A stretch of DNA of 24,076 bases from positions 1 to 24,076 of the IMG/VR virus record IMGVR_UViG_3300045975_000369; one strand, written 5' to 3'. This DNA comes from a virus. This document shows, in pieces, positions 1 to 24,076 of the stretch; the stretch's first letter is position 1, and each line of letters opens with the position of its first letter. The notes beneath the pieces were generated by a model. The model was not told the origin of the DNA and did not search any database. It saw only the letters and a program-made list of their open reading frames with translations. Both the position numbers and the translations under genes were made by a program.

Positions 1-30
1 GTCTAGGACGTTCATCTTGTAGACCGCGTG

Positions 31-51
31 TGTACCTCCGTACATTTTTTT
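31..51 (+). terminator. weak hairpin plus T-run at the left edge
   Basis: A 5-bp stem (TGTAC, positions 31-35, pairing with GTACA, 40-44) around a CTCC loop is followed directly by seven T residues (45-51). This is the arrangement of an intrinsic terminator for a gene entering from the left on the + strand, but the stem is short. The same bases read on the - strand give GGAG, a short A-rich spacer and an ATG at 45-43 that stays open to the window edge, so a divergent gene start is the competing reading. The sequence shown cannot decide between them. Confidence 0.3.
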
Positions 52-76
52 CTCCGAATGTGAGAAATTCCCGACT

Positions 77-628: not shown

Positions 629-876
629 GAAAAAACGATTGGGACGATTTAGTAATCACAGGACACAAAGGCGATTTTTATTTTCATCATGATGATTCCT
701 ACATCACGATTCGTTATGGGGATGATGTAATGGATGTTGTCACTATTCCCGTCAAAGGCCCCAATTCTTGGCAGTGGAACGGCAATAGAGAAAAGCCAAC
801 ATTATCCCCCTCAATACTCGTCGGTGCTAATTTATGGCATGGCTGGATGAGGGATGGAGTATTGATTGACGCATAG
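625..876 (+). CDS. small conserved phage protein, WxWNG / PTLSPSI type (DUF6527-like)
   Basis: This 83-residue protein of unknown function has a His/Asp-rich beta-type N-terminal half and a C-terminal half with 'WQWNG', 'KPTLSPSI' and 'WHGWMRDGVL'. The W..NG...PTLSPSI...G...G pattern is one I associate with DUF6527-type small phage proteins, which often sit among packaging or structural genes; the function of that family is not established. The start is the ATG overlapping the terS stop (ATGA). Its end overlaps the TTG start of the large terminase by 11 bases, so it is wedged tightly between the two terminase genes. Base composition is more AT-rich than terL. A role in packaging is only inferred from position. 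Confidence 0.65.
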   Translation: MRKNDWDDLVITGHKGDFYFHHDDSYITIRYGDDVMDVVTIPVKGPNSWQWNGNREKPTLSPSILVGANLWHGWMRDGVLIDA

Positions 877-2473
877 GTTTCCAATGTTCGATCAAGCCAA
901 AGCCGAAAAAGCGGTTGGATTTATCCAATCGATGAAGCTCACCGGGGATTTTCATGGGCAACCGTTCGACCTGATGCCGTGGCAACACCAGATCGTTTGG
1001 GATGTATATGGCACACTAAACCCGCGCGGGGTGCGGCAGTATCGTCACGTGTATGTCGAATGTGCCAAGAAGAACGCCAAAAGCCAGTTGACTTCGGGCA
1101 TCGGCAACAAACACCTTTACGATCGCGATGAACCCAACGGGCAGATCGTCTTATGCGCGGGAGACCGCGAGCAGGCGGAACAGACGATCTATTATCCGTT
1201 GGTGGAGATGATCGAGCAGGATCCTGCATTGATCAAGCGCGTGAAGATCATTGACAGTAAAAAGTTCATCGAGAACAAAGAGACGGGCACTACATTGAAA
1301 GTGATCAGCGCAGAGTCCTACACAAAACACGGCTGGAATATCTCCTGCTGTGTTTTCGATGAACTGCATGTGCAGCCCAACCGCGATCTATATGACGTGA
1401 TGATCAAGGGCGCAGGCCTGGCGCGGCGCCAGCCGATCTGGTGGGTGATCACTACTGCAGGCGATGACCCGGACCGTGTCTCGATCGCGTGGGAGGTGCA
1501 TGAAAAAGCCGAAGCCATCCTGAAGGCGAGGGCGGCCAAGGATAAGAACAGCGATGTTGACACCTGGTACCCCGTCATCCATGCCTACAACGGCGAGGAT
1601 ATCTATAACGAGAAGAACTGGGCGAAGGCGAACCCGTCCCTTGGGATCACGCTTCAAGCGGACGATCTGCGCGATCTGGCGAAGGAGGCGAAGCTCCATC
1701 CTGCAGACGAGCGTCTCTTCCGTTGGCTGAATCTCAACCAATGGGTGACGACGAAATTGTCGAGCTGGCTGCCGCTCGACCTATTCGATTCAACCATCGG
1801 CGCGTGGGAACGCAAGGACCTGCTCGGCAAGAAATGTTATATCGGGATGGATCTCTCAACAACGACAGACCTGAGCGCGATCTGTCTCGTATTTCCTCCG
1901 CAGGATGGTTTCGAGGATTGGCGCGTCATCTGGGATTGCTGGATCCCCGAAGAGAACATGAAGGATCGCATCAAGCAGGACCACGTGCCTTACGACGAAT
2001 GGGCTGCGCAGGGATGGATCCAGCCCACCAAGGGCGACATGATCGACCACACTGTGATCGAGATGCGTATCCAGGAGATCCGCAAACTGTATAAAGTGAT
2101 CGAACTGGACGGTGACCGGACCTTTGCGACGATGTTATGGCAGCGCCTCGAACAGGACCGATTGACCTGCGTGGACATTCCCCAGCAATACGCCACGCTG
2201 ACAGACCCCATGAACACGATCGAGATTCTATTGCGCGGGAAGCAGATCTCTCATGAAGATCATCCAGTTGCACGCTGGTGTTTTGGCAATACCAGCATCG
2301 TCAAGAACGGCAACGCGCAGATCAAATATGTGAAGGAACGCAAGGGAAAGAATCTCGACCGCTCGAAGCGCATCGACCTGACCGTGGCCTGGGTGTGCGC
2401 GATGGCGCGCGCGAAGTTTCACGACAAGATCAAAAGCGTCTATGATAAGCGTGGCATTCGGGTTGTGGGTTGA
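866..2473 (+). CDS. terL: phage terminase large subunit (ATPase and nuclease), Terminase_1/HK97 type
   Basis: This is the packaging motor: an N-terminal ATPase drives DNA into the prohead and a C-terminal RNase H-like nuclease cuts the concatemer. Visible landmarks are a Q-motif-like 'MPWQHQIVWDVYG' (about residue 37), a Walker A-like 'AKKNAKS' near residues 67-73, Walker B 'CCVFDELH' with D165/E166, a coupling motif 'ITTAGDDP', and the first nuclease aspartate in 'YIGMDLSTTTDLSA' (about D329). Its 535 residues are normal for the family. I chose the TTG at 866 because GGAG (856-859) lies six bases upstream; an ATG at 884 is the alternative but has no clear ribosome site. The Walker A has Ala where most relatives have Gly. 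The TGA stop lies inside the -35 element of the next promoter. Confidence 0.93.
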   Translation: MTHRFPMFDQAKAEKAVGFIQSMKLTGDFHGQPFDLMPWQHQIVWDVYGTLNPRGVRQYRHVYVECAKKNAKSQLTSGIGNKHLYDRDEPNGQIVLCAGDREQAEQTIYYPLVEMIEQDPALIKRVKIIDSKKFIENKETGTTLKVISAESYTKHGWNISCCVFDELHVQPNRDLYDVMIKGAGLARRQPIWWVITTAGDDPDRVSIAWEVHEKAEAILKARAAKDKNSDVDTWYPVIHAYNGEDIYNEKNWAKANPSLGITLQADDLRDLAKEAKLHPADERLFRWLNLNQWVTTKLSSWLPLDLFDSTIGAWERKDLLGKKCYIGMDLSTTTDLSAICLVFPPQDGFEDWRVIWDCWIPEENMKDRIKQDHVPYDEWAAQGWIQPTKGDMIDHTVIEMRIQEIRKLYKVIELDGDRTFATMLWQRLEQDRLTCVDIPQQYATLTDPMNTIEILLRGKQISHEDHPVARWCFGNTSIVKNGNAQIKYVKERKGKNLDRSKRIDLTVAWVCAMARAKFHDKIKSVYDKRGIRVVG

Positions 2474-2495
2474 CAAAACCAAATTGTGATATACT
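2470..2495 (+). promoter_or_regulatory. extended -10 promoter at the end of terL
   Basis: TTGACA (2470-2475) is a perfect -35 hexamer and overlaps the terL stop codon. TGaTATACT (2487-2495) is an extended -10 element, with TG one base before the hexamer TATACT. The spacing from TTGACA to TATACT is short at 14 bases, although a 17-base spacing to ACTAAT (2493-2498) is also available. An extended -10 can work with a poor -35 spacing. The expected start point near 2501-2503 coincides with the first base of hairpin 1, which makes the site more convincing. Confidence 0.6.
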
Positions 2496-2501
2496 AATTT
2501 C

Positions 2502-2640
2502 GTGGTGGGTGGGGTGCCCCCCTCACCCGACCCGCCACATCTGAAAACCTAATTCTGCAGCCCTGGTCTTGTATCGGGGCGAACTGTCGGAGTGATGCGC
2601 CCGGCGATTCTCGAAAGAGAGTCGTCGGGCGCTTTGCATT
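2502..2640 (+). ncRNA. candidate structured RNA between terL and the accessory genes
   Basis: The gap after terL has no ORF with a credible start but holds three hairpins in a row. Hairpin 1 pairs 2502-2516 with 2524-2538 (15 positions, one mismatch, one G-U, 7-base C-rich loop). Hairpin 2 pairs GCCCTG (2560-2565) with CGGGGC (2575-2580). Hairpin 3 pairs 2597-2612 with 2617-2632 (16 bp including two G-U pairs) closed by a GAAA tetraloop, and is followed by TTTGCATT, like a weak intrinsic terminator. A promoter just upstream would start transcription at the foot of hairpin 1. Either a free-standing RNA of about 140 nt or an attenuating leader for the next gene (ribosome site at 2641) fits. I do not recognise an RNA family. 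Confidence 0.5.
2597..2640 (+). terminator. GAAA-capped stem with short T-run
   Basis: A 16-bp GC-rich stem (2597-2612 with 2617-2632, two G-U pairs) closed by GAAA is followed by TTTGCATT. The stem strength fits an intrinsic terminator; the T-run is short and interrupted, so termination may be partial. It ends only eight bases before the AAGGAG of the next gene, so read-through or a conditional fold would be needed for late transcription to cross it. Confidence 0.5.
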
Positions 2641-2650
2641 AAGGAGCGTG

Positions 2651-2926
2651 ATGCTCATCCCTGCAAGTCATATTGCTGTGCTGGCGCTGCTCTCTGCCGC
2701 GGAATATCTGTATCGGTTTTATTCCGATCCAATTCACAGATACGCCTCATTGGGCAAGGCGATCGGAAGATTACTTTTGGCAGGCACCTACTTGTTTATC
2801 GCATTGGATGACCCGACGGAAGCCGTGCGCATGGTATTGGTGAGATGGTCCCTGTTCATGTTTTTCTTCATCGATCTCTTCTTCATCGTTCAACGCCACA
2901 TTACGGACAGGATCCTCTCAAAATGA
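2651..2926 (+). CDS. small membrane protein, three predicted membrane segments (holin-like shape)
   Basis: The 91-residue product has three hydrophobic stretches, at about residues 5-20, 36-52 and 62-82, separated by short charged loops, and a basic C-terminus (RHITDRILSK). That topology resembles a class I holin, but many unrelated small phage membrane proteins look the same and I see no specific family signature. The ATG at 2651 is chosen because AAGGAG (2641-2646) lies four bases upstream; a GTG at 2648 sits too close to it. Its stop overlaps the next ATG (ATGA). It is the first gene after the candidate promoter and structured RNA. No holin is seen beside the endolysin, so this is a reasonable holin candidate by inference only. 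Confidence 0.75.
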   Translation: MLIPASHIAVLALLSAAEYLYRFYSDPIHRYASLGKAIGRLLLAGTYLFIALDDPTEAVRMVLVRWSLFMFFFIDLFFIVQRHITDRILSK

Positions 2927-3776: not shown

Positions 3777-3972
3777 ATTTTCTTCATTTTTTCAGGCATT
3801 TGTTCGGTTTATTGGCATTCATGAAGCCCTGTTTCTGCTTGGTTTTTCCGCTTTTTTTATTGGCATACGTGATTTATGGTCGATGGAGATCGCATTGACG
3901 GTCTGCGGCGCCATTTTAATGATCGTTGCGATTGCATCGATCCTTGCTAGTAGTCGGAAGTCAGGTGCTTGA
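3766..3972 (+). CDS. small two-segment membrane protein
   Basis: The 68-residue product has two hydrophobic stretches (about residues 17-35 'IHEALFLLGFSAFFIGI' and 42-61 'IALTVCGAILMIVAIASIL') and a basic tail ('ASSRKSGA'). It overlaps the preceding gene by 11 bases and its TGA shares one base with the portal ATG (TGATG), so it is coupled to both. The ATG at 3766 has GGAG close by (three-base spacing) and GGTGGAGG further off; a TTG at 3757 is an alternative that would add three residues. A two-segment protein of this size could be a holin or antiholin, but nothing specific shows it. Confidence 0.6.
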   Translation: MKPRFSSFFQAFVRFIGIHEALFLLGFSAFFIGIRDLWSMEIALTVCGAILMIVAIASILASSRKSGA

Positions 3973-5612
3973 TGGGATTTTTGACTGATGCTTTTCAAAA
4001 GCGATCTGTGACCGTGGTAGGCGATGAACTATGGCGTTCCTGGAAATCCGCGCAGGTCTATAGCGGCATGAACGTGACGCCCGACACGGCCATGAACTTT
4101 TCGGCGGTCTTTGCGGCGCACAAGATCCTCTCTGAATCGACGGCCATGCTCCCCCTGTTTCTGCTGAAACGGTTGAACCCGCGCGGCAAGGAGCCCGCCA
4201 CGAACAAAAAGTTATTCGGCGTGCTGCATGATGTCGCCAACCCGGAAATGGATTCCTACTTGGTGCGGGAGACCATGACTGCCCATCTAGTCGGCTGGGG
4301 ACGCACGCACGCCAAGATCGATTATGACGCGGATGGGCAGGTGCAGGCGATTTGGCCGATCCATCCCAAGTTCGTGACTCAAAAACGCAACGCGCAGTTG
4401 GAGTTGGCGTATGAGGTGACACTGCCCAGCGGTGAGAAAAAAACCTATCCGTCCTGGATGATGTTCACCCTGCGCGGACTGTCACCCGACGGCGTGAACG
4501 TCTACACCCCGATCCAACTAGCCAGGCAGGGAATTGGTCTGGCCCTGGCAGCAGAGGGGTTCGGAAGCACCCTGTTCGGAAACGGGGCCATGCCCAATGG
4601 TGTACTCGAAACTGACCAGGGATTGAGCGACACGGCCTATAAACGTCTGAAAGAGGATTGGAGCAATAATCACCAGGGAATATCGAATTCCAATAAGTTC
4701 GATATTCTCGAAGAAGGATTGAAATGGAAAGCCACTTCGGTCCCGAACGAAGACGCCCAATTCCTGCAGACCCGCGTTTTTCAAGTCGAAGAGATCGCCC
4801 GCTGGTACCGCATCCCAAACATGATGCTGAACATGAGCGGCGCCAACTCGACCTATGCCAGCGTCGAGGCATACGGATTGCAATTCGTGATCTATACGCT
4901 TTATCCCTGGCTGGTGCGCTGGGAGAAGGGCATCAGCATGCAGCTCCTGCTTGAACGCGAGCGCGGCAAATATTTTGCCGAGCATTCGATGAGCGCGATC
5001 TTGCGCGGAGATACCTCCAGTCGCTATGCCGCCTACGGCACCGGCAGACAGTGGGGCTGGCTGAGCGTGAACGATATCCGCGCGCTGGAAAACCTCAACC
5101 CGATCGACGACGGAGACATTTATCTGCAGCCGTCCAACATGGTCAAGGCGAACGATGTTTCGACGGCACAACGGTCCTATCTGCCTGTCTATCTGGACGC
5201 TGTTCAACGCATCTTGCGGCGTGAGGCCAACGACATCCGCGCGGCTGTGCAGAAGGTCCTGCCAAAACAGGGGATCGATGGATTTGTCATCTGGCTGGGT
5301 GAGTTCTATGCGGAGCACCAGGAGTTTATCGTCCGTAATCTCATGCCCGCCGCACAAAGTTTTGCAGAAACGGTAGCGAACGGGCTGGACCTGAGTTCGG
5401 TGAATGCAAGGGTGGCAGAGTCGTTGAAGTTGTTCGCAATTCGCCGTGCGGGCCAGATGCAGGAGAAGCTCAAAGCCGCCCTGCAGGATCCTGAGCCTGC
5501 TCGCAGTATCGAACATATTCTCGACGGTTGGGATCAGCTCTACGTGGAGCGGATCGCCCGCGAGGAGATCGGCAGGCAGACCAATGTTCTGGCAGTCAAG
5601 GAGATTTTATGA
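3972..5612 (+). CDS. HK97-family portal protein
   Basis: The portal forms the dodecameric ring at one capsid vertex through which DNA passes and to which terminase and connectors dock. The N-terminal part shows the family pattern 'FSAVFAAHKILSESTAMLPLFLLKR' broken by normal variation, then 'WGRTHAKIDYDADGQVQAIWPIHP', 'HQGISNSNKFDILEEGLKW' and 'IARWYRIPNMMLNM'. The 546 residues exceed the roughly 400 of a minimal HK97 portal because of a helical C-terminal extension (about residues 400-546). The ATG at 3972 overlaps the preceding stop as TGATG; a TTG at 3969 is a less likely start. The stop overlaps the protease ATG (ATGA). The portal-protease-capsid order is the classic HK97 order. Confidence 0.93.
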   Translation: MGFLTDAFQKRSVTVVGDELWRSWKSAQVYSGMNVTPDTAMNFSAVFAAHKILSESTAMLPLFLLKRLNPRGKEPATNKKLFGVLHDVANPEMDSYLVRETMTAHLVGWGRTHAKIDYDADGQVQAIWPIHPKFVTQKRNAQLELAYEVTLPSGEKKTYPSWMMFTLRGLSPDGVNVYTPIQLARQGIGLALAAEGFGSTLFGNGAMPNGVLETDQGLSDTAYKRLKEDWSNNHQGISNSNKFDILEEGLKWKATSVPNEDAQFLQTRVFQVEEIARWYRIPNMMLNMSGANSTYASVEAYGLQFVIYTLYPWLVRWEKGISMQLLLERERGKYFAEHSMSAILRGDTSSRYAAYGTGRQWGWLSVNDIRALENLNPIDDGDIYLQPSNMVKANDVSTAQRSYLPVYLDAVQRILRREANDIRAAVQKVLPKQGIDGFVIWLGEFYAEHQEFIVRNLMPAAQSFAETVANGLDLSSVNARVAESLKLFAIRRAGQMQEKLKAALQDPEPARSIEHILDGWDQLYVERIAREEIGRQTNVLAVKEIL

Positions 5613-6289
5613 AACCCAAAAAACAAACCGACCCTGTGGAGCGCAGGACGTTCAACGTGAAAGAACTGCGCGCCGCGACCAAAGAAGATAAGCCGGTGCT
5701 GGAAGGCCTGGCGTCTGTGTTCAACGAATACAGCGAAGATCTTGGAGGATTTGTTGAGATCATCGAGCCAGGTTTTTTCGACGATGTACTGGAAGACGAT
5801 GTACGCTCGCTGGTAAACCATGATCCGAATTATGTGCTGGGACGCACCAAGAGCGGCACGCTCGAGATCCAGCAGACTGAGGAGGGTCTTTTCCAGCGTA
5901 CCTATCCACCCATTACAGAACCCGAAGCGGCCCAGTGGGCAAAAGACGTGATGGTCTCGGTACGGCGTGGCGACGTGGACCAGATGTCGTTCGGTTTTAT
6001 CGTTAAGAGCACCTACCGCGGCGACCCGGAAGACGGTGATGATTGGTACGTGCTTGGCGATCAGATCGTTCGTCGCCTGAAGAAAGGCGGCGCCAAGAGA
6101 CTGCTGGATGTCTCGGTCGTAACCTATCCAGCATATCCGCAGACGAACGTGAGCGCGCAAACACGCTCGCGATTTGAAGAGTTCAAGGAGTCTCTCCCCG
6201 GGCAGGAGCCTGAGGAGGTCGAGGCAGGAGAGTGGCAGGAGCCGCTCGATACCCTGCAGCGACGGCTTGATCTCAAAACCAAAGAATAA
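5609..6289 (+). CDS. HK97-family prohead protease (peptidase S78 type)
   Basis: The maturation protease cleaves the capsid scaffold domain, and itself, inside the prohead. The 226-residue product has the expected motifs: 'LEGLASVFNEYSEDLGGFVE', the histidine motif 'SLVNHDPNYVLGRT' with H71, the serine motif 'DVDQMSFGFI' with S127, and 'LLDVSVVTYPAYPQT' near residues 165-177. In many relatives the last motif reads E-V/I-S; here an aspartate (about D167) stands where the third catalytic residue is expected. The start is the ATG overlapping the portal stop; a longer frame reaching back to 5528 only translates portal sequence out of frame. The acidic C-terminus after residue 185 may be removed by self-cleavage. 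Confidence 0.93.
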   Translation: MKPKKQTDPVERRTFNVKELRAATKEDKPVLEGLASVFNEYSEDLGGFVEIIEPGFFDDVLEDDVRSLVNHDPNYVLGRTKSGTLEIQQTEEGLFQRTYPPITEPEAAQWAKDVMVSVRRGDVDQMSFGFIVKSTYRGDPEDGDDWYVLGDQIVRRLKKGGAKRLLDVSVVTYPAYPQTNVSAQTRSRFEEFKESLPGQEPEEVEAGEWQEPLDTLQRRLDLKTKE

Positions 6290-6303
6290 TCAGGAGAACA
6301 AAA

Positions 6304-7614
6304 ATGAACCCTCGTGAATTACGCGATAAACGCGCAGGGCTGAAGGTTGAAGCCCAGACCATCCTCGATAAAGCCTCCGCTGAAAAGCGGGCGCTTACGC
6401 AGGAGGAACGCGATCAGTATGACAACCTGGTTGCGCAGATCGATTCGCTCGCGGCGGATATTCGCCGCGCTGAGAAGATGGCGGAATTGAACTCCGAAAC
6501 CACCCCGACCGAGGAGCGCAAGACAAAGAACCCGACCGCCCAGATCGGAATGACCGATCAGGAGATCGGAAAATATTCCATCGTCCGGGCGATCAATGCC
6601 GCGGTGGAGAAAGATTGGGCTGGCGCAGGTCTGGAGAAAGAAGCCAGCGACGCGGTCGCCAAACGTTTTGGGCGCACTCCCCGTTCCTTCTTCATCCCGC
6701 ACGATGTCATGGTTGGCCGTGAAAAACGCGACCTGGTTGTCGGGACGCCGTCGGCAGGTGGATACCTGGTGGCGACACAGCAATTGTCCATGATCGAACT
6801 GCTTCGCAACCGCATGATTCTCGCGCAGGCGGGCGTGCGCATATTGTCGGGGCTTGTGGGCGATGTTGCCATCCCGCGGCACACCGGGGCGGGGACCGGC
6901 TACTGGCTGGCGGAAAGCGGCGCGCCAACCGAGAGCACCCAAACACTTGGGCAGGTAGGTCTTACCCCGCATACGTTTGGGGCTTATTCAGACATCAGTC
7001 ACAAATTGCTGATCCAGGCGAGCCTCGATGTGGAAGCATTCGTGCGCGACGACCTGGCGCGAGTCATTGCGCTGGGCATCGACTATGCAGGCCTGCATGG
7101 AGACGACAGCGCCGATCCGAACCAGCCTGACGGCGTGATCTCCACCAGCGGGATCGGTTCGGTTGTGGGCGGCACGAACGGCGCCGCGCCCGACTGGGCC
7201 GATATCGTCGATCTCGAAAAAGAGGTTGCCATCGATAACGCCGAAGTGGACAACATGGCCTATATCACCAATGCGGCTGTGCGCGGGAAGCTGAAAAAGA
7301 CCTTTCGCAACGCCACATATGGTGAGCTTCCCATCTGGGAAGGCGACACATTGAACGGTCATCGCTCTCTGGTCTCGAACCAGGTGCGCTCGAACCTGAC
7401 AAAAGGCTCCGCCAGCGGGGTCTGTTCAGCGCTCTTCTACGGCAACTGGGACGATCTGGTCATGGGCATGTGGGGTGATGGCGTCGATGTGCTGGTGGAT
7501 CCATTCTCGTTGAGCACCCAGCGTGCAGTTCGCGTGGTGGCGTTCCAGGACGTGGATTTCGCCGTGCGCCATGCGCAGAGCTTTGCCGCCATGCTCGATG
7601 CGTTGACAACGTAA
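6304..7614 (+). CDS. HK97-family major capsid protein
   Basis: The 436-residue product forms the icosahedral shell. The N-terminal 100 or so residues are charged and heptad-like ('LRDKRAGLKVEAQTILDKA', 'QYDNLVAQIDSLAADIRRAE'), as in the scaffold-like delta domain removed by the prohead protease. The body then begins with 'SAGGYLVATQQLSMIELLR', 'VGDVAIPRHTG' and 'YWLAESGAPTESTQTLGQV', all typical of HK97-fold capsids, and ends with 'DVDFAVRHAQSFAAM'. A clear AGGAGA lies eight bases before the ATG, fitting high expression. It follows the protease after 14 bases. The exact cleavage site cannot be read from the sequence. Confidence 0.95.
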   Translation: MNPRELRDKRAGLKVEAQTILDKASAEKRALTQEERDQYDNLVAQIDSLAADIRRAEKMAELNSETTPTEERKTKNPTAQIGMTDQEIGKYSIVRAINAAVEKDWAGAGLEKEASDAVAKRFGRTPRSFFIPHDVMVGREKRDLVVGTPSAGGYLVATQQLSMIELLRNRMILAQAGVRILSGLVGDVAIPRHTGAGTGYWLAESGAPTESTQTLGQVGLTPHTFGAYSDISHKLLIQASLDVEAFVRDDLARVIALGIDYAGLHGDDSADPNQPDGVISTSGIGSVVGGTNGAAPDWADIVDLEKEVAIDNAEVDNMAYITNAAVRGKLKKTFRNATYGELPIWEGDTLNGHRSLVSNQVRSNLTKGSASGVCSALFYGNWDDLVMGMWGDGVDVLVDPFSLSTQRAVRVVAFQDVDFAVRHAQSFAAMLDALTT

Positions 7615-20762: not shown

Positions 20763-21833
20763 ATGAACCGCAAGATCGCTTCCGCTTCGCACAATCTCTA
20801 TTATTTCGTCAACGGCACTGAGGTCATCACGCCGCGGGCGCATGGGATCGATCTCAGCAAATACGACCTGTCGTTCTATCCAGAGACCGCCACGGGGCAA
20901 CTGGATTTTGTCTTTCAGCGTGTTTCGTATCGGGTGACGCGGGATGAGGCCTTCGAGGCCCTCCTGCCCGGGGTGCTCAAGGTGCCCATCCGTATGGGAT
21001 ATCACTACCTGGCGACCGATCACACCTGGCGTGAACAGGCGGACAAGTACCTGCAATGCATCAAGGGCGTGCCCTATCATGCGCATGTGTGCGATTTTGA
21101 AACCGCCTTTAACACGGTCAACATGGAGTTCGTGCGTTCGACCTGGAACTGGATCGACTACGTGGCGCAGAGAACGGGGCAGCCGACCCTGCTATATACG
21201 AACTACAGCCTGTACGGCACGTGGATCTACCCCAGCGAAAAGCAGTTCGGCATTGATTGGGACAAGGTCCCATTCTGGCAGGCGCAATACCTGTTCACGC
21301 CCGACCCGAACAAGAACCCCTCCACGCCGACAGGCCGAACGAACCCGTGGAAGTTCTGGCAATACACTGAAACAGGCAATGGTTATCAGTATGGCACCGG
21401 CCGACCGAAGGCCCTGGATCTGGATGTCTTCAACGGCACGGTGACCGATCTCAAACAGTTTCTGGGCATCGACGACGGGACGGTCCCGCCGACCGACCCA
21501 CCCCCCACTGGAGGAACCATGAAAAAAGGAACTTTGAAAACGGGCACCAGCGCCCTGAACGTGCGATCGGGACCCAGCCAATCCTATCCCGTGATCACCG
21601 TGCTCTATACAGGGGATACGGTCTACGGCCTGCTGGAGGCCTCGGGTTGGCTGAACGCCCAGAAGATCGTGCGGAAATCGGGCGCGACTGAGACCCTGAA
21701 CGGATACTGCAACGCTTCCTATTTGGATCTGAGCGACGTGCCCGACCCCTCGAACGGCGCCTACCCCATGAGCGTTTCGGTGGAAACGGATACGCATCAC
21801 GGCTCGGGCGAACTGACGATGACGCCAAACTGA
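20763..21833 (+). CDS. endolysin: GH25 muramidase plus C-terminal SH3b wall-binding domain
   Basis: The enzyme cleaves the MurNAc-GlcNAc bond of peptidoglycan at the end of infection. The 356-residue protein has a GH25 domain (about residues 20-225) with 'HGIDLSKYD' (D30), 'LDFVFQR', 'IRMGYHYLA', the catalytic D-x-E in 'HVCDFETAF' (D111, E113) and the closing 'FWQYTETG' and 'ALDLDVFNG'. A proline-rich linker ('VPPTDPPPTGG') leads to an SH3b domain starting 'ALNVRSGPSQSYPVITVLY'. No signal peptide is visible, so a holin should release it. A strong internal start at 21519 is annotated separately. Confidence 0.92.
   Translation: MNRKIASASHNLYYFVNGTEVITPRAHGIDLSKYDLSFYPETATGQLDFVFQRVSYRVTRDEAFEALLPGVLKVPIRMGYHYLATDHTWREQADKYLQCIKGVPYHAHVCDFETAFNTVNMEFVRSTWNWIDYVAQRTGQPTLLYTNYSLYGTWIYPSEKQFGIDWDKVPFWQAQYLFTPDPNKNPSTPTGRTNPWKFWQYTETGNGYQYGTGRPKALDLDVFNGTVTDLKQFLGIDDGTVPPTDPPPTGGTMKKGTLKTGTSALNVRSGPSQSYPVITVLYTGDTVYGLLEASGWLNAQKIVRKSGATETLNGYCNASYLDLSDVPDPSNGAYPMSVSVETDTHHGSGELTMTPN
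21510..21521 (+). promoter_or_regulatory. internal ribosome site and start codon inside the endolysin gene
   Basis: GGAGGAA (21510-21516) is followed after two more bases by ATG (21519-21521), in frame with the endolysin (codon 253) and exactly between the proline linker and the SH3b domain. It is stronger than the ribosome site of the full-length gene. It looks like an internal translation start. Confidence 0.7.
21519..21833 (+). CDS. predicted separate SH3b wall-binding subunit of the endolysin
   Basis: Translation from the internal ATG would give a 104-residue protein, 'MKKGTLKTGTSALNVRSGPS' onward, containing the whole SH3b domain and the C-terminal tail but no enzyme part. Several characterised endolysins make such a wall-binding subunit from an in-frame start and assemble it with the full-length enzyme to improve binding. 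Here the evidence is the strong ribosome site, the correct frame and the exact domain boundary; production is inferred. Confidence 0.55.
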   Translation: MKKGTLKTGTSALNVRSGPSQSYPVITVLYTGDTVYGLLEASGWLNAQKIVRKSGATETLNGYCNASYLDLSDVPDPSNGAYPMSVSVETDTHHGSGELTMTPN

Positions 21834-22912: not shown

Positions 22913-24076
22913 TTATTCCTGCCAGACGAAGCGGATGTCATTTTTGGTGAGGACGATCTTTTGGATGAGGGCGGCGAGGAGCTGGTTGATACGGACTGGG
23001 TCATCGTTCTTGATGAGGGCAGGAAGATGGCGAAGGACTTTTTGGAGATCGCCCAGGCGCTGTTTCCATTCGGCCCTGGTGCGTTCGTGATCCTGAGCCT
23101 GTTCGATGCTTCGCGAAATTCTGGCGGCGTCCGCTTCGAGCTTGCTGAGTTTGGCCGAGGCCTCAGCTGAAGTGTAGAGTCCGCTTTCGTAGCCGTCGTG
23201 GATGCGGGCGCGGCGCGAGGCGATGGCATCGAGTCTGGTTTTGAGCGGGGTGATATCGACAGGGCGGACGGGCATGGATTGGGCGCGCTTGAGTTCATCG
23301 ACCAGGGCGTTTGAGATGTAATCGATGGCAGCGTCATATCGCATACACCAGTGACTGGATTTTTCACAGCCATAATATTTGAACTCTTCCCTGCCGTGCC
23401 TGTGGATCCTGCCGCCGCAGACGCCGCAGACAGTGAGGCCCGTAAAAGGGTAGCGGGCATTGTAGTTGCGTTTGCCTTCGAGGCGGCGGGATGCTTCAGC
23501 CAAAATGGCGTAATGAGTGGCTTCATCCCAGAGCGGTACATGTTTGCCGTGTTCGACCTGCCATTGAGAGGGCGGCGCGGGGACACGCTTTTTGTGTTTG
23601 CCGATCGAGACAATGCCGGCATTATATTCGCTGGTGAGCATTTGCTTGATGACCTGGCCCTGCCAGTATTTGCCGCGGGCGGGGCGAAGGATCTTATCGG
23701 AGCGGCGGGCAATTTCGGCATAGGAAAGACCCGAGAGCATCCAGTCTTTCATTTGGACGAGGAGCGCGGCGCGTTCGGGGATCTGTTCGGCGGGCTGACC
23801 TTTTGCAGTGGCTTGATAGGCATAGTTGAGGGAAAGAGGATGGAGTCCCCTTTCAACACGGGCGGGCACTCCGGTCTTCCAGGCGCGACGGAGTTTATTG
23901 AGACGGTAGGCTGTCAGGATGGCTTCAACGTGCATGTCGATGTCGGTGGATTCGTCGCGGTGCGGGTCGTATTGATCGGCGGGGATGACGGAGCCTGACT
24001 GGCGGGCGGAGACCAGCTGGGCATTATGTTTTTTGAAGCGGGTGCTGAGCATGGGGGCGATATCGCCGAGACGGTC
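22913..24076 (-). CDS. large serine recombinase (phage integrase), N-terminus outside the window
   Basis: The gene runs off the right edge: the frame is open to 24076 without a start codon being needed, giving 387 visible residues. An ATG at 24052-24050 is in frame, but the bases before it still translate as 'DRLGDIAP', as expected for the tail of a resolvase catalytic domain, so it is not the start. The visible part has a recombinase domain ('RGLHPLSLNYAY', 'AEIARRSDKIL', 'YWQGQVIKQMLTSEYNAGIV'), a zinc ribbon ('GLTVCGVCGGRIHRHGREEF' then C and C), a coiled-coil arm ('ASAKLSKLEADAARISRSIE') and a C-terminal 'QLLAALIQKIVLTKNDIRF'. Large serine recombinases integrate phage DNA between attP and attB. 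The catalytic serine lies outside. Confidence 0.9.
   Translation of the reverse strand, partial: DRLGDIAPMLSTRFKKHNAQLVSARQSGSVIPADQYDPHRDESTDIDMHVEAILTAYRLNKLRRAWKTGVPARVERGLHPLSLNYAYQATAKGQPAEQIPERAALLVQMKDWMLSGLSYAEIARRSDKILRPARGKYWQGQVIKQMLTSEYNAGIVSIGKHKKRVPAPPSQWQVEHGKHVPLWDEATHYAILAEASRRLEGKRNYNARYPFTGLTVCGVCGGRIHRHGREEFKYYGCEKSSHWCMRYDAAIDYISNALVDELKRAQSMPVRPVDITPLKTRLDAIASRRARIHDGYESGLYTSAEASAKLSKLEADAARISRSIEQAQDHERTRAEWKQRLGDLQKVLRHLPALIKNDDPVRINQLLAALIQKIVLTKNDIRFVWQE

Follow-up and report, generated by a model that had tools for sequence, protein, structure and literature searches.

The window, the whole 24,076-nucleotide stretch of DNA analysed here, makes up positions 1 to 24,076 of the IMG/VR virus record IMGVR_UViG_3300045975_000369. 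Between the end of terL at 2473 and the next start codon at 2648/2651 lies an interval free of genes, as a sequence-only reading of this DNA had stated when it placed a promoter-driven structured RNA there. The interval holds two RNA elements, a hairpin, A, and a larger element, B, whose copy in the window, B2, spans 2549-2641. The features of the locus are as follows.

866 to 2473, plus strand: terL, the upstream gene, whose last codons overlap the promoter region.
2470 to 2495, plus strand: putative promoter, with the -35 element TTGACA at 2470-2475 and the extended -10 element TGATATACT at 2487-2495 (sequence coordinates).
2502 to 2538, plus strand: hairpin 1, element A, promoter-proximal; nine plus five pairs and one 1x1 mismatch, with the apical loop TG-CCCCCCT-CA (loop 2517-2523).
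2556 to 2559, plus strand: 5' strand of helix P1 of B, TGCA, partner of 2596-2599; paired over 4 bp in 43/45 elements, where compensatory changes occur.
2560 to 2580, plus strand: hairpin P2 of B, the middle hairpin, GCCCTGGT..ATCGGGGC; eight pairs in the MFE structure, seven of which show two-sided changes in the family.
2586 to 2590, plus strand: 5' strand of helix P3 of B, GTCGG, the antiterminator, partner of 2601-2605; 5-bp pairing in 44/45 elements.
2596 to 2599, plus strand: 3' strand of P1, TGCG, inside the P3 loop, creating a pseudoknot and overlapping the terminator foot.
2601 to 2605, plus strand: 3' strand of P3, CCGGC, a portion of the terminator 5' arm (shared, hence mutually exclusive).
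2597 to 2640, plus strand: intrinsic terminator, a 16-bp GAAA-capped stem (2597-2632) with the tail TTTGCATT, from scan and covariation.
2641 to 2926, plus strand: ribosome site AAGGAG (2641-2646) and the first gene past the leader, for a 92-aa membrane-type protein.
3969 to 7614, plus strand: genes for portal, protease and major capsid protein, forming the block that B2 precedes.

Both parts of the promoter proposed earlier are present, but a standard scan with spacers of 16-18 nt does not call it, because only 14 nt separate TTGACA from the -10 element. The poor spacing makes the -35 element doubtful, and this promoter is therefore probably driven by its extended -10. At the equivalent position the close relatives L002, L006 and L007 have a spacer of 17 nt, and promoter-like sites are enriched ahead of the family's B elements (mean score 9.1 versus 7.1 in shuffles). 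The stretch 2490-2650 folds with an energy of -80.5 kcal/mol, and 200 shuffles of it average -53.7 +/- 4.2 kcal/mol, giving z = -6.4. The first hairpin, with its foot at 2502, and the GAAA-capped 16-pair terminator stem with its tail, here a weak T-tract, are present as the earlier reading described them, and the middle hairpin is where it was placed, with eight pairs rather than the six given for it. That reading lacked three features: the status of hairpin 1 as a separate module, the pseudoknot 2556-2559/2596-2599 and the antiterminator helix 2586-2590/2601-2605. Elsewhere in the window a large serine recombinase (Pfam Recombinase, 22913-24052, minus strand) suggests that the phage is temperate, and a GH25 endolysin lies at 20763-21833. 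A family search with the 92-aa protein gave no match, and a tRNA/tmRNA search of the sequence found none.

Searches with TerL found a homologous RNA directly after terL in L002, L006 and L007, and more diverged versions in L008 and in L035, a Villigracilaceae prophage. The first alignment, of four relatives, had changes on both sides in 10/35 pairs, and the first covariance model, built from those relatives, picked up additional copies in the same phages. In L003, L005 and L048, B does not adjoin terL; one copy lies upstream of the terminase genes and another follows terL at a distance of about 0.7 to 2 kb. A second covariance model, R2, consisting of the middle hairpin and the terminator only, matched 10/14 records, 6/7 new records picked by DNA pattern and 16/17 new records picked only via two neighbouring proteins. 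Among 400 Anaerolineales genomes four matched, and 298 genomes sampled from the class yielded a single true match; matches in G033 and G130 (L145, L146) were dropped as generic terminators. In all, 35 phage or prophage records contain B according to covariance models, mostly with two copies per genome. Long records mostly carry two, and a 67.7-kb contig carries four, arranged as two complete B1/B2 pairs with 36 kb between them (L149, contig G312), probably two related phages within one record. The window and eight relatives gave no matches in Rfam 15 at the gathering threshold, permissive Rfam searches with four B elements gave chance-level matches only, and blastn against 50,697 phage records gave no match, in keeping with the earlier statement that no known RNA family fits. 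By sequence comparison, the RNA after terL is thus a member of an undescribed family in phages of Anaerolineales (Chloroflexota), an unpublished or subscription-only account being possible. Two B copies per genome provide a searchable marker for this phage group.

The gene order is Z-B1-X-HNH-TerS-TerL-B2-accessory genes-portal, such that B1 precedes the packaging genes and B2 follows terL, ahead of the portal and head genes. Only B2 is visible in the window, because the window opens at TerS. In most of 19 Z loci B1 starts 24 to 65 nt past the Z match, which places the B1 promoter within the end of Z. The TerL proteins of B-carrying phages range from 86% down to 26% identity to that of the window, so B tracks position rather than one terminase type; the order from Z to portal is kept even in records whose TerL is merely 26-34% identical. 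A terminase-linked RNA, such as a packaging RNA, is disfavoured, as B is kept twice per genome alongside TerL of 26-34% identity, and several phages with 76-78% identical TerL have B elsewhere, not next to terL. Most members have a ribosome site and start codon no more than a few tens of bases past the terminator, as judged by a loose motif search without control. The accessory genes behind B2 vary, with HD-GYP or GH25 endolysin genes in several phages. The earlier suggestion of a leader for the membrane protein gene is favoured as far as the leader goes and not for that particular gene, since the genes following B2 differ between relatives and B2 heads the head/tail block.

Covariation was counted in 47 elements (45 distinct) aligned to R2, with L007 left out of these counts. 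In P2 and the terminator 96.5% of cells are paired and 19/23 pairs have changed on both sides, a level reached by 0/500 shuffles. The R2 alignment model contains neither P1 nor P3, and their covariation therefore provides independent tests. For P3, a linker RUCGG, which is a copy of part of the terminator 3' arm, can pair with CCGAY in the 5' arm. All five pairs are possible in 44/45 elements, versus 29.6 +/- 1.8 after exchange of linkers among elements (maximum 37 in 2000 trials) and 2.5 with shuffled linkers, and 3/5 pairs show changes on both sides. For P1, NGCR ahead of P2 pairs with YGCN in the P3 loop over 4 bp in 43/45 elements (swap null 30.3 +/- 1.7, maximum 37 in 5000 trials), or in 30 versus 14.2 +/- 2.7 when only Watson-Crick pairs are allowed; the alternative pairs are G-C for A-U, and C-G, U-A and G-C. 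P1 is not clearly kept in the divergent copies L007, L008 and the second copy of L035. The strand order P1, P3, P1', P3' is that of an H-type pseudoknot. Both helices are mutually exclusive with the terminator, P3 having CCGAY in common with it.

Such element counts overstate independence, because the elements are related by descent, and the cleanest covariation evidence is found in near-identical pairs. L138 and L164 differ in four columns, two of which are a matched P1 change (G-C/A-T). Similarly, L212 and L216 differ in five, three of which are changes matched across the linker and both terminator arms, and in L126/L162 the linker and 5' arm change together while the 3' arm stays unchanged (G-U). 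The sequence-only reading had staked its structured RNA on compensatory changes in relatives; these are abundant, and the proposal withstands the comparison. What the comparison shows is the family itself, the positions of its members, P2, the terminator, and that P1 and P3 covary, and the compensatory changes specify exact mutations with which B can be tested.

These helices bear on the simplest explanation of the locus, an ordinary module boundary at which a promoter and a terminator flank inserted accessory (moron) genes and the structure is merely that of the terminator. The accessory genes near B2 do vary and terminators are common at such borders, but a terminator has no need of P1, P2 and P3, which nevertheless covary, and the same RNA occupies two fixed places beside unrelated terminases, making this explanation very improbable. 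The comparative evidence also bears on the earlier choice between a free RNA of about 140 nt and an attenuating leader. In the former case B would be the gene of a trans-acting small RNA that its terminator simply ends, the late genes being transcribed from elsewhere. Its own promoter-like site and terminator, intergenic location and two copies per genome would suit such a gene, and phage-derived sRNAs are an established class according to a review (PMC12197685). A plain sRNA terminator, however, has no need of helices that exclude it, whereas these are kept by compensatory changes; a gene start lies close downstream in most members (the same loose, uncontrolled motif search), and the alignment of B elements has no long conserved unpaired seed. 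The small RNA gene is for these reasons unlikely, and the leader is favoured by the pairing of a pseudoknotted antiterminator against a terminator, with a ribosome site and start nearby downstream. A free regulatory RNA is possible as a by-product or alternative of that leader.

We consider it likely that the B elements form a new, riboswitch-like family of transcription attenuators heading late operons in Anaerolineales phages, in which a pseudoknotted antiterminator competes with a terminator. A sigma-70-type promoter would initiate a short leader; as this emerges, P2 would form and the linker RUCGG would pair with CCGAY, which is also the terminator 5' arm, while YGCN between the P3 strands would pair back to NGCR just ahead of P2 to yield the H-type pseudoknot. 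If some factor stabilises this antiterminator, polymerase would continue into the late genes (ON); if the knot is not stabilised, the longer terminator hairpin would prevail and transcription would end after about 90-140 nt. With B1 before the packaging block and B2 before the portal/head/tail block, both would be switched together, and B is probably an on/off switch for virus particle production. Consistent with this scheme, nearest-neighbour folding with the terminator 3' arm absent gives P3 a mean probability of 0.83 (above 0.5 in 39/45 elements), and with the full element gives the terminator 0.99. Next to the terminator with its 11-16 bp, P1 (4 bp) and P3 (5 bp) are by far the weaker helices and would need a factor to stabilise them, candidates being a phage protein, a metabolite or a polymerase/Nus factor. 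Leader transcription, the switching, its direction and its control by a factor are what we infer from these structures. Two riboswitch features are found, namely a conserved aptamer-like fold in a 5' leader (P1/P2/P3 covariation, with a gene start following by a loose test) and a mutually exclusive antiterminator and intrinsic terminator (the shared CCGAY, three-strand covariation, and truncated versus full folding); B is called riboswitch-like rather than a riboswitch because the class needs a demonstrated ligand.

Late-gene control is understood in few phages, the known systems depending on put RNAs or on proteins that load at sites in DNA or RNA, and Chloroflexota phages are almost unstudied. 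If the scheme is true, phage assembly in Chloroflexota hosts would be switched by an RNA, through a conserved pseudoknot that opposes a terminator ahead of each of the two late blocks. The lambda pR'-tR' unit is a short terminated leader heading the late operon, with readthrough late in infection, and in this respect would be a functional analogue of B. Recruitment of lambda Q depends on a DNA element together with a pause near the promoter (PMC7171158), whereas the conserved feature of B is an RNA structure, present in two leaders per genome. The nearest RNA-only phage antiterminators, by analogy, are the put RNAs of HK022, a class marked by two stem-loops that bind the beta' zinc-binding domain and antiterminate factor-free. 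HK022 has two such promoter-linked RNAs, each about 70 nt long, which work without any phage protein (PMC9378689). The likeness of B to them raises the possibility that B, A or both are put-like RNAs which bind the emerging polymerase and make it terminator-resistant (processive antitermination), their own terminator being overcome first. As in HK022, B occurs as two structured, promoter-proximal RNAs per phage that would act on transcription, and the near-invariant loop and variable stems of A are expected of a binding site. The put RNAs, however, have no overlapping, built-in terminator switch, antiterminate early operons in trans at any downstream terminator where B precedes late genes, and differ from B in sequence, fold and architecture, all of which makes a put-like action improbable.

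The attenuator reading has closer structural parallels in riboswitches. The preQ1-I riboswitch of B. subtilis is a small H-type pseudoknot in a 5' leader that competes with an intrinsic terminator or antiterminator (PMC11625349), and B resembles both preQ1-I and ZTP/pfl riboswitches in having such a knot upstream of, and competing with, the terminator/antiterminator. In B. subtilis preQ1-I folding of the knot favours the terminator, whereas in B the knot takes the terminator 5' arm and would be ON. B further differs from these pseudoknot riboswitches in the hairpin inside loop 1, the lack of an Rfam match and the phage late genes downstream. C4 antisense RNA is, like B, a phage-encoded structured RNA (listed in PMC2864571), to which B has no Rfam match.

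A bolder claim is that Anaerolineales phages time their late, virion-building genes by this dedicated pseudoknotted RNA switch, twice per genome, through the sensing of a specific signal, be it a phage protein such as Z, a metabolite or a second messenger; this we regard as tentative, and as somewhat less probable than not. If true, such sensing by RNA would take the place of Q-type late antitermination, and the A hairpin would add a second RNA element that is recognised separately. Z, an orphan protein of about 105 aa, conserves cysteines and the motifs LCTG and C..C..W and lies directly upstream of B1 in most phages (L165 1145-1468, L187 4001-4321 and homologues). As the nearest conserved gene it is a candidate late regulator or trigger, and B is also present without an adjacent Z in L005, L189 and L190. 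Z, the one conserved neighbour tested for the Q family, had no match at a meaningful level in Pfam and PHROG, and its predicted structure (pLDDT 71) had no fold match in the PDB. Genes with HD-GYP-like domains lie directly behind B2 in several phages (L005 7291-7857, L007 2687-3262, L008 2140-2832, L147 4450-5007), hinting at second-messenger metabolism near the switch; a nucleotide second messenger as the trigger is a thinner lead than Z. In most phages B1 is followed first by the gene for protein X (L006 2542-2970, L003 2101-2529 and homologues), a hydrophobic, membrane-type protein of about 142 aa that gave no family match and could be a holin.

Element A is a separate module with a near-invariant C-rich loop on completely different stems. 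Three variants of its loop 11-mer, searched in 1.6 Mb of DNA, occur in 19/19 distinct contexts as hairpin-like structures, and the contexts checked lie upstream of B2 only. In L003, L005, L048 and L150, A lies upstream of B2 with a promoter-like site of its own, and L002, L006, L007 and the window have it joined to B2, in the window at the 5' end of the leader. Because the loop is near-invariant while the stems vary, A has the pattern of a putative sequence-specific binding site. A leader peptide within A, considered because several members have an ATG/GTG at the predicted start, was rejected, as in L007 it meets a stop after three codons and the A hairpins of L156 and L169 have no start codon there. 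L206 and L207 carry two A hairpins in tandem upstream of B2, with different stems and the same loop, and some A hairpins (L223) themselves resemble terminators. The terminator loops of the near-identical L002 (5569-5574) and L006 (5755-5760) are mutual reverse complements (TTGT and ACAA, respectively), as an inversion of the hairpin tip would produce.

G-rich stretches complementary to the A loop CCCCCCUC occur at the HNH-TerS border of some relatives and look like a coding or cos-like feature rather than a target of that loop. The relatives conserve a G-rich stretch between HNH and TerS, after which come AATCTCTG and TAGACCGnCGnGGG (L002 3150-3230, L006 3335-3415, L048 1385-1460, L005 3040-3130), an arrangement that in sequence looks like a cos-type site. 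The left end of the window (1-60) aligns just past this cos-like stretch, and the record may therefore begin at a natural or near-natural end.
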